Below are positions 8,603 to 25,107 of a DNA stretch of 59,837 nt, one piece after another; the first letter of the stretch is position 1, and the number at the start of each line of letters is the position of its first letter. The notes under the pieces were generated by a model. That model was not told the DNA's origin and did no database searches. It was given only the letters and a program-made list of their open reading frames with translations. The DNA comes from a bacterium (GTDB lineage Bacteria; Patescibacteriota; Saccharimonadia; Saccharimonadales; Saccharimonadaceae), in assembly GCA_027451105.1 (NCBI GenBank), contig DAIDKB010000010.1, positions 1 to 59,837 of the forward strand, read 5' to 3'. The translations under genes were made by a program, and so were the position numbers.

Positions 8603-8679
8603 GCCCCGGTAGCTCAGTTGGATAGAGCAGAGGACTTCTAAGCCTAAGGTCGCTGGTTCAATCCCAGCCCGGGGTACCA
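8603..8679 (+). tRNA. tRNA-Arg (TCT)
   Basis: Acceptor GCCCCGG/CCGGGGT (G1-U72 wobble), anticodon loop CTTCTAA (TCT), T-arm GCTGG TTCAATC CCAGC, encoded CCA (8677-8679). The anticodon stem GAGGA/GCCTA has A31-G39 and G27-A43 mismatches, which is unusual. It is followed by a terminator and an interrupted partial copy. Confidence 0.88.
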
Positions 8680-8732: not shown

Positions 8733-8896
8733 TTTGAATCAACGACTTTTTGCGAAGCAAAAAATGTCGCTGGTGAGAACTGCCACGTCGGCAGTTCGCA
8801 AGGCCGGAAGCCGGATGACGAACGTCACCGACTGAGGCGGGGTAGCGAAAAATTCGGAACGAATTTTATCGTGACCAATCCCAGCCTGGGGTACCA
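8733..8896 (+). repeat. tRNA-derived interrupted T-arm element B (Arg-TCT)
   Basis: A degenerate inverted T-arm TTTGAATCAACGAC (8733-8746), a TTTTTGC/GCAAAAA hairpin, a direct copy GTCGCTGGT (8766-8774) of the tRNA T-arm 5' half, a 102-nt insert (8775-8876), then AATCCCAGCCTGGGGTACCA (8877-8896), which differs from the tRNA 3' end by one base. The insert contains the hairpin GAACTGCC/GGCAGTTC followed by GCAAGG (shared with element C), CCGG-aag-CCGG, an AAAATTC/GAATTTT hairpin and the terminal GTGACC. It lies upstream of the membrane gene at 8975. Confidence 0.8.
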
Positions 8897-23871: not shown

Positions 23872-24420
23872 GTGGACGATTTAAGCTTTCTAGAGCAAGA
23901 TGCGGTTGCGGTTGCCCGGCGGCTGCTTGGGTGGCGTTTTTATAGACAGGACGCCAGCGGTCTGGTGGGCGGCGTAATCATCGAAACCGAGGCTTATACC
24001 GAGGATGATGCTGCCAGCCACACTTTTAATGGCCAAACAAATCGCAATAAAGTCATGTTTGGGTCGGCTGGTCATTTGTATGTCTACTTTACCTATGGCA
24101 TGCATTATTGTGTCAATATTGTTGCGGGGCACGATGGTCGTGGTGAAGGTGTTTTACTGCGAGCATTGGTTCCAGATCAGGGAATCGATATTATTAGTCA
24201 GCGTCGTCATAGTCAGCCGGATAATATGCTAGTTAATGGCCCAGCGAAACTTTGCCAGGCGCTAAATATTGGCCGTGATGATAATGGTAAAGCGGTAAAT
24301 CAGGGTGAGTTTTTATTGCTACCGCCTGATAAGCCAATTTTTAATGTCCAGGCAACAGAACGAATCGGTATCAAGAAAAACACTAGTTATAATTGGCGCT
24401 TTATCGCTGACGTTAAATAG
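23872..24420 (+). CDS. 3-methyladenine DNA glycosylase (MPG/AAG family)
   Basis: 182 residues. IIETEAYTEDDAASHTFNGQTNRNKVMF contains the catalytic Glu, and YFTYGMHYCVNIV carries the DNA-intercalating Tyr region. VNGPAKLCQALNI is the late motif. Removes alkylated adenine and hypoxanthine from DNA. Starts with GTG; a weak box TACGCT lies 6 nt upstream and no Shine-Dalgarno is visible. Length matches bacterial AAG enzymes. Confidence 0.9.
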   Translation: MDDLSFLEQDAVAVARRLLGWRFYRQDASGLVGGVIIETEAYTEDDAASHTFNGQTNRNKVMFGSAGHLYVYFTYGMHYCVNIVAGHDGRGEGVLLRALVPDQGIDIISQRRHSQPDNMLVNGPAKLCQALNIGRDDNGKAVNQGEFLLLPPDKPIFNVQATERIGIKKNTSYNWRFIADVK

Positions 24421-24491
24421 TGATGATTTTGTCTTGTGTTAACAGGGGTAATGGTGTACAATCAGTTTTTGTAAATAGACAAAATATACGT

Positions 24492-24568
24492 GGGCCAGTA
24501 GCTCAGCTGGTTAGAGCGTCTGCCTCTTAAGCAGAATGTCGTGGGTTCAAGTCCCACCTGGCCCTCCA
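24492..24568 (+). tRNA. tRNA-Lys (CTT)
   Basis: Acceptor GGGCCAG/CTGGCCC, D-arm GCTC/GAGC, perfect anticodon stem TCTGC/GCAGA with loop CTCTTAA (CTT), T-arm GTGGG TTCAAGT CCCAC, encoded CCA (24566-24568). Its T-arm 3' half, acceptor end and terminator are repeated exactly 194 nt downstream. Confidence 0.94.
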
Positions 24569-24611
24569 AATAAAGAACACCCTTTGATCGCTACCGAGGG
24601 TGTTTTTTATT
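24569..24611 (+). terminator. Terminator of tRNA-Lys (first copy)
   Basis: AATAAAGAACACCCT pairs with AGGGTGTTTTTTATT, ending in a run of six T. An identical copy occurs at 24763-24805. Confidence 0.85.
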
Positions 24612-24626
24612 GGAAAATATTTCGCT

Positions 24627-24805
24627 GGGACTTGAAACCGCGACTGTCGTGGGTGAGAACTGCCAGTCGGCAGTTCGCAAGGAAACCTTCCGGTGGCAAC
24701 TGGTTTGCCATCCGTGAAGTTTCGGGGTCGCGGAATGTGACCAAGTCCCACCTGGCCCTCCAAATAAAGAACACCCTTTGATCGCTACCGAGGGTGTTTT
24801 TTATT
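24627..24805 (+). repeat. tRNA-derived interrupted T-arm element C (Lys-CTT), terminator duplicated
   Basis: The inverted T-arm GGGACTTGAAACCGCGAC (24627-24644) differs at two positions from the exact complement of the tRNA-Lys T-arm. Then comes a direct copy GTCGTGGGT (24646-24654) and an 88-nt insert (24655-24742) with hairpins GAACTGCC-agtc-GGCAGTTC, AAGG-aaa-CCTT and a GGTGGCAA stem, ending in GTGACC. The final segment (24743-24805) is 63 nt identical to 24549-24611: T-loop end, acceptor 3' strand, CCA and the whole terminator. The inverted T-arm could pair with both flanks of the insert, closing a multi-branched structure. Confidence 0.85.
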
Positions 24806-24822
24806 TTGCTATACTTTAAGAT

Positions 24823-25107
24823 ATGGAGAACATCGAAAAAGCAGCTATGCCCGAGCGTCACATTCCTCAAACTGGCGTGTACGAACATTACAAAAGTACG
24901 CCCGAAGACCGACGATATTATCAAGTGCTATGCGCCGCTAAGCACACTGAAACTGATGAGATATTGGTTGTTTACGTGCCGATGTACGAATCGGCTGAAA
25001 AATCAGATGTTCAGTTCTTTGTGCGACCACTTGCGATGTTTAATGAGACGGTTGAACGTGATGGCGAGACTATCCCGCGCTTTCGCTATATCGGCCCCGA
25101 AGTCTAA
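24823..25107 (+). CDS. DUF1653 family protein
   Basis: 94 residues. GVYEHYKSTPEDRRYYQVLCAAKHTETDEI...LVVYVPMYE...FFVRPLAMFNETV...PRFRYIG follows the DUF1653 pattern (small cytoplasmic protein, function unknown). The ATG is 7 nt after TATACT (24810-24815), which begins right behind the duplicated tRNA-Lys terminator, so element C lies immediately upstream of this promoter. Confidence 0.82.
   Translation: MENIEKAAMPERHIPQTGVYEHYKSTPEDRRYYQVLCAAKHTETDEILVVYVPMYESAEKSDVQFFVRPLAMFNETVERDGETIPRFRYIGPEV

Follow-up and report, generated by a model that had tools for sequence, protein, structure and literature searches.

Small structured elements, probably mobile, inserted at tRNA genes of Saccharimonadales

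The tRNA-Lys(CTT) locus

The window analysed here is a stretch of 59,837 nucleotides from a bacterium of the family Saccharimonadaceae (contig DAIDKB010000010.1, assembly GCA_027451105.1). It contains an intact tRNA-Lys(CTT) gene followed by a structured insert and by a second, displaced copy of the tRNA 3′ end (Table 1). A repeat search retrieved a direct repeat of 64 nt (24548-24611 and 24742-24805, 100% identical, spacing 194), which is far beyond chance and includes the 3′ part of the tRNA, from C56 to the CCA, together with the terminator. The initial annotation had described this duplication with the same period, one base short (63 nt), and was right in placing an inverted T-arm and an 88-nt insert between the copies and in stating that the second copy has a terminator and lacks the tRNA 5′ half. 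Terminator stems were found by scanning in both copies (24581-24600 and 24775-24794). On both strands, the 131 nt that separate the repeats have a better fold than shuffled sequences (z −3.6 on the + strand and −4.4 on the − strand). Further downstream, an ORF encoding a DUF1653 protein (24823-25107) is supported by PF07866. The promoter proposed for this gene, 5 nt after the second copy, could not be recovered: a sigma-70 scan of 24380-24900 returned 0 promoter-like sites. A product of about 180 nt, also suggested initially, is hypothetical; the core is preceded by a terminator.

Table 1. Coordinates of the two element copies of the window and of their host tRNA genes.
Feature	Position	Strand	Evidence
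tRNA-Arg(TCT), host of the second copy	8603..8679	+	ARAGORN
Divergent second element copy, P2 region replaced by CCGGAAGCCGG type	8760..8886	+	Covariance model R1, 47.3 bits; sequence
Displaced tRNA-Arg 3′ end (AATCCCAGCCTGGGGTACCA)	8877..8896	+	Sequence
tRNA-Lys(CTT), intact host tRNA	24492..24568	+	ARAGORN; Rfam RF00005, 74.8 bits
Proximal tRNA 3′ end (from C56) and terminator	24548..24611	+	100% identical to 24742-24805
Inverted T-arm copy; could pair with both core flanks	24626..24644	+	89% complementary (17/19) to 24538-24556
Copy of tRNA T-stem 5′ strand (GTCGTGGG), left core flank	24646..24653	+	Sequence, alignment
88-nt core, between T54 and R57 of the displaced T-arm	24655..24742	+	Covariance model R1, 123.9 bits; boundary invariant in family
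Hairpin P1, GYGA foot	24657..24676	+	Every pair with compensatory changes
Hairpin P2	24682..24723	+	Compensatory changes
Hairpin P3 (GGTCGC..GTGACC), conserved G-T pair	24726..24742	+	Alignment, covariation
Displaced tRNA-Lys 3′ end and terminator	24742..24805	+	Terminator type as in empty-site relatives G010 and G059

The left junction CGACTGTCGTGGGTGAG is common to the window and to the genomes G006, G016, G020 and G003, indicating that the insertion is older than the split of these five genomes or was exchanged between them. The 3′ ends and terminators are identical within each of three genomes (that of the window, G006 and G003) and different between them. Within G016 and G020, the two 3′ ends and terminators differ; their displaced terminator resembles the ancestral one of the empty-site relatives G010 and G059, whereas the terminator of the intact tRNA is different. 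Fully identical terminator duplicates are rare (4 of 47 copies), and three of the four are located at this tRNA-Lys. Concerted evolution by gene conversion is the simplest account of the 64-nt identity. The initial annotation had offered either a recent event or gene conversion; the second fits the data better, and a recent event is at odds with the junction shared by five genomes and with copies that are identical within three of them but different between genomes.

The search for an empty site that had been suggested for related strains was successful. The tRNA-Lys(CTT) gene of G010 has a single 3′ end and is syntenic, with an upstream YGGT gene 86% identical to that of the window. Conversely, the homologous tRNA-Lys of the separate assemblies G006, G016, G020 and G003 shows the same arrangement with a different sequence, which disposes of the assembly artefact envisaged at the outset. 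The exact 64-nt repeat would in itself agree with such an artefact or with a plain tandem duplication of the 3′ end, but the repeats enclose a conserved 88-nt core, and many independent assemblies have this core at other tRNAs. This recurrence refutes both as a sufficient account, and we consider them barely credible.

A core family at tRNA genes

The dispersed, covarying family to which the 88-nt core belongs could not be seen from the window alone. We built a covariance model (R1) from 58 relatives, for which RNAalifold predicted 35 base pairs. Compensatory changes, with both sides altered in at least one of the 58 sequences, were found for 31 of the 35 pairs. Four outer pairs correspond to the tRNA T-stem and would covary anyway; P1, P2 and P3 have no such link to the tRNA. 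One conserved pair is G-T in 53 of the 58 sequences. Since the core pairs outside it include 25 G-T versus 19 A-C cells, the preference for the + strand rests mainly on this single pair.

The genome of the window contains seven copies of the insert as detected by DNA similarity and ten as detected by R1; the others adjoin tRNA-Ser(CGA), Leu(GAG), Met(CAT), Lys(TTT), Arg(TCT) or degenerate tRNA 3′ ends. The copy at tRNA-Arg(TCT) in the window (8760-8896) keeps P1, and its CCGGAAGCCGG-type structure recurs in other genomes (L332, L079); the sequences of this second core type are too divergent for a usable alignment. R1 matched 81 of the 198 Saccharimonadales genomes, with copy numbers running from 0 to about 20. 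Of 116 genomes sampled across the phylum, 3 gave a match, which in the third was weak and came from a different order of the same class. A short pattern run against GTDB contigs matched mainly Saccharibacteria; its actinobacterial matches were attributed to chance, the core being absent there by profile search. Rfam searches at gathering and relaxed thresholds gave tRNA matches and chance plant matches and nothing else. No match was obtained when IMG/VR viral contigs were scanned with two exact patterns, or when phage and plasmid sets were searched for the core by blastn. A full-text literature search, with subscription journals and preprints largely outside its scope, retrieved no earlier description of the element family. 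Two genomes negative for the element at the strict threshold, G095 and G254, present diverged elements after tRNA-Gln, tRNA-Lys and tRNA-Asn (L324, L325, L329), whose resemblance to the family is limited to hairpin P1 and the location in the T-loop.

Among 131 distinct full-length copies, 113 have a same-strand tRNA gene at a distance of at most 300 nt, and 28 anticodons are represented. When the copies fetched with a query that contained a tRNA are left out, 60 of the remaining 73 are near a same-strand tRNA, and most of the 13 without an adjacent callable tRNA are preceded by a decayed or degenerate tRNA 3′ end. Within 120 nt, 80 copies follow a tRNA and 27 precede one; in nearly all copies the core lies 57-98 nt after the CCA or 17-73 nt ahead of the tRNA. 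A terminator precedes the core in the downstream class, as at tRNA-Lys, and the 3′ boundary of these cores is fixed between C56 and R57 of a partial copy of the adjacent tRNA. The first 8 nt after the core match this tRNA at 7 or more positions in 70 of the 80 downstream copies, and in 42 of them at least 19 of 20 positions match its 3′ end. The copies located before a tRNA lie in the T-loop or, in a minority, at the D-arm/anticodon-arm junction of a 5′-half decoy with its own upstream region.

The inverted piece is moderately enriched across the family and is not universal: its motif TYGAA occurs in 50 of 80 left flanks, in 21 of 80 on the other side and in 15% of random windows, and pairing with the flanks exceeds the control in part of the copies. 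A universal, contiguous 'splint' complementary to the target is only partly supported by the data, with complementarity of at least 8/10 in 33% of left flanks (3% in the control) and 13% of right flanks (3%). At the tRNA-Lys(CTT) of G060 (L024), a displaced T-arm carries a short unrelated insert (TTAGCCGGCGCGTAGCCCGACGCTG) in place of the core.

The structural conservation of the core and its tolerance of G-U pairs on the sense strand, together with the tRNA-Lys(CTT) junction common to five relatives, could indicate a vertically inherited host non-coding RNA that is encoded beside tRNAs by happenstance. This is very improbable for an element that is missing from 117 of the 198 genomes of the order, has 28 different host anticodons and occurs in nested and arrayed copies; moreover, a terminator stands before the core in the downstream class, and no promoter was found at the tRNA-Lys locus.

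Mobility and putative mode of insertion

Overall, core sequences do not follow their host tRNAs. Identity is practically the same for cores at the same isotype and side (72.4%) and for different ones (72.0%), and cores about 95% identical occur at different tRNAs; for instance, one in G018 is at Gln(CTG) and one in G003 at Arg(GCG). In 30 of 113 cases, a core and its nearest relative adjoin tRNAs for the same amino acid, versus a mean of 13 and a maximum of 29 with shuffled labels. This is partly due to orthologues and shows that some copies were vertically inherited. Two tRNA-Gln genes of the complete genome G094 have related composite copies in which a core is nested. In G246 (L336, G246:C4:28000-30000), tandem identical units of about 190 nt, each composed of a promoter, a tRNA-Arg 5′-half decoy and a core, precede an intact tRNA-Arg; within this array, the contig sequence includes a run of N. 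We dropped the idea that the distal members of an array are invariably the older ones, with a lower model score, the picture being mixed by eye. No transposition between a known parent and its daughter was found among the observed copies.

The presence of cores at different tRNAs, the nesting, the tandem arrays and the syntenic empty site together point to a family of mobile elements that leave an intact tRNA upon insertion. We thus conclude, with a probability of about 0.75, that the element at the tRNA-Lys locus belongs to a family of small, mobile, non-coding elements of Saccharimonadales, which insert in tRNA T-loops with one half of the target being copied, and that the 3′ ends at this locus were later gene-converted.

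In every case the flanks correspond to the local tRNA, while the cores are dispersed, patchy between genomes and common to different tRNA species. Since the core changes its host tRNA and the flanks match the local one, the flanks were presumably acquired at insertion. This bears on an explanation in which the mobile unit is a small circle with a tRNA half and a terminator of its own, which recombines at the T-loop and displaces the host 3′ half, in the manner of tRNA-targeting islands or integron cassettes. Tandem identical units do exist (in G246), and the displaced terminator in G016 and G020 is indeed the one that resembles the ancestral G010/G059 type, but a carried tRNA half would force isotype-specific lineages, and near-identical cores sit at different tRNAs. 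The core is furthermore located inside the would-be 7-nt overlap, and recombinases of the Phage_integrase family (PF00589) do not differ between element-rich and element-free genomes, most of which encode one Xer-like gene, including the complete G094. We regard such a cassette as unlikely. A cassette with its own tRNA half would give chimeric tRNAs, so we favour, by inference, insertion of the core at GGTTC/RA with copying of the target on one side.

According to this favoured model of core insertion, the core would move, probably as folded sense-strand DNA or via RNA, into the conserved GGTTC/RA site. One target half, including its terminator (or promoter), would be copied at insertion, often along with a short inverted piece, and the cell would retain a working tRNA, making the insertion tolerable. 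At tRNA-Lys(CTT), gene conversion may afterwards have kept both 3′ ends identical. The mobilising enzyme, for which we have candidates, would act in trans. More tentatively, and with the odds somewhat against it, the family could be a new category of parasite DNA: an element of about 90 nt that invades essential tRNAs between C56 and R57 by an insertion reaction of its own, copying a target half with the terminator or promoter, and whose flanks are rewritten for each host tRNA.

Candidate enzymes and known systems

Reverse transcriptases (RVT_1) were detected in 3 of 24 element-rich versus 7 of 20 element-free genomes, and none is encoded in the genome of the window. A more specific version of the preferred reading, that of a mobile family, assigns the movement of the core to an HUH (Y1) transposase of the RAYT/TIRYT type, which would recognise the GYGA-footed P1 in single-stranded DNA, as RAYTs are thought to move REPs. 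Y1_Tnp proteins are encoded by 13 of 24 element-rich versus 1 of 20 element-free genomes, the last one being a typical IS200 protein. Strong RAYT-like matches are present in 38 of 81 genomes with the element versus 8 of 117 without it (p=7e-11); in 40 genomes, about one per family, the figures are 11 of 23 versus 1 of 17 (p=0.005), which controls for phylogeny to the family level only. The RAYT-bearing G095 and G254 have diverged tRNA-adjacent elements that keep P1, and 4 of 60 RAYT-like genes, including G000:C18:30477-31085 in the genome of the window, are within 500 nt of an element. The association may nevertheless stem from a general abundance of mobile DNA in some genomes. The gene is missing from about half of the element-rich genomes, among them the complete G094 (16 copies), G066, G098 and G263, and 54 of the 60 genes are not near a tRNA. 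Most of the 60 have palindromes specific to the gene (AAGGWNNWCCTT type) at their borders, and not the core. Convincing at first, a RAYT as the machinery is weakened by these palindromes, and we now consider it doubtful.

The RAYT-like proteins have about 205-230 aa, keep the HUH motif and pass the Pfam cut-off for Y1_Tnp; against NF047646 (REP-associated tyrosine transposase, NCBIfam), they score 35-38 bits versus a cut-off of 80. In loci L244-L322, palindromes of the AAGGWNNWCCTT form flank each RAYT-like Y1 gene at both ends in inverted orientation. A gene bordered by its own palindromes corresponds to the arrangement named TIRtron (PMC3733652). Five of the six RAYT-like genes located at most 600 nt from a tRNA adjoin tRNA-Glu(TTC) (L309, L311, L312, L322, L259). 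The role of these proteins could be judged on the assay used for TnpA_REP (PMC8266576).

The element is similar to the REP/REPIN sequences associated with RAYT/TnpA_REP in being short, non-coding, hairpin-forming and dispersed; RAYT-like HUH genes are enriched in genomes that bear it, but several element-rich genomes lack them. REPs are extragenic palindromes of 20-40 nt with a GTAG foot, whereas the element has a three-hairpin core of about 90 nt with a GYGA foot, is located in T-loops and includes a partial tRNA duplicate. REPs are present in high copy number, often more than 100 per genome; the element does not reach such numbers, with 10 copies in the genome of the window and about 20 at most. 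By definition (PMC3733652), the palindrome of a REP has the tetranucleotide GTAG (or CGTC) at its foot. Neither stands at this place in the core, whose foot is GYGA in the 58-sequence alignment. The RAYT-like genes do not form REPtrons (a RAYT gene flanked by the same repeat) with the core in general, most of the 60 having their own palindromes and only the four mentioned above lying within 500 nt of a core.

Integrative elements that target tRNAs (tyrosine-integrase islands and prophages) likewise use a tRNA stem-loop as target and leave a complete tRNA and a displaced 3′ end. The element differs from them in having no integrase gene, a core of about 90 nt inside the T-loop, and insertions also upstream of tRNAs. 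Integron cassettes and their attC sites share with the element folded single-strand sites, small units and tandem arrays, but the element has a variable stem and a conserved interior (the reverse of attC) and a tRNA target, and no IntI was found. No conserved R or L boxes of attC were seen by eye in the alignment, and most element-rich genomes encode no extra tyrosine recombinase. Fungal mitochondrial double-hairpin elements, GC clusters and Rickettsia palindromic elements are small structured mobile DNAs that are tolerated in or near essential RNA genes; we know of no partial host-tRNA duplicate in any of the three. By the features tested, the element falls outside the REP, tyrosine-integrase and Rfam families and probably outside the integrons, and resembles small hairpin elements moved in trans.

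The R1 covariance model, the exact target position, the empty sites and the few candidate enzymes make the mechanism open to testing. These data are also a warning that tRNA 3′ duplications in Saccharibacteria should not be taken for assembly errors or remnants of large islands. Essential tRNA genes can apparently be invaded without loss, an intact tRNA copy staying beside the element, which would allow tiny mobile DNA to occupy the most conserved genes that a very small genome has, with no lethal effect on the host.
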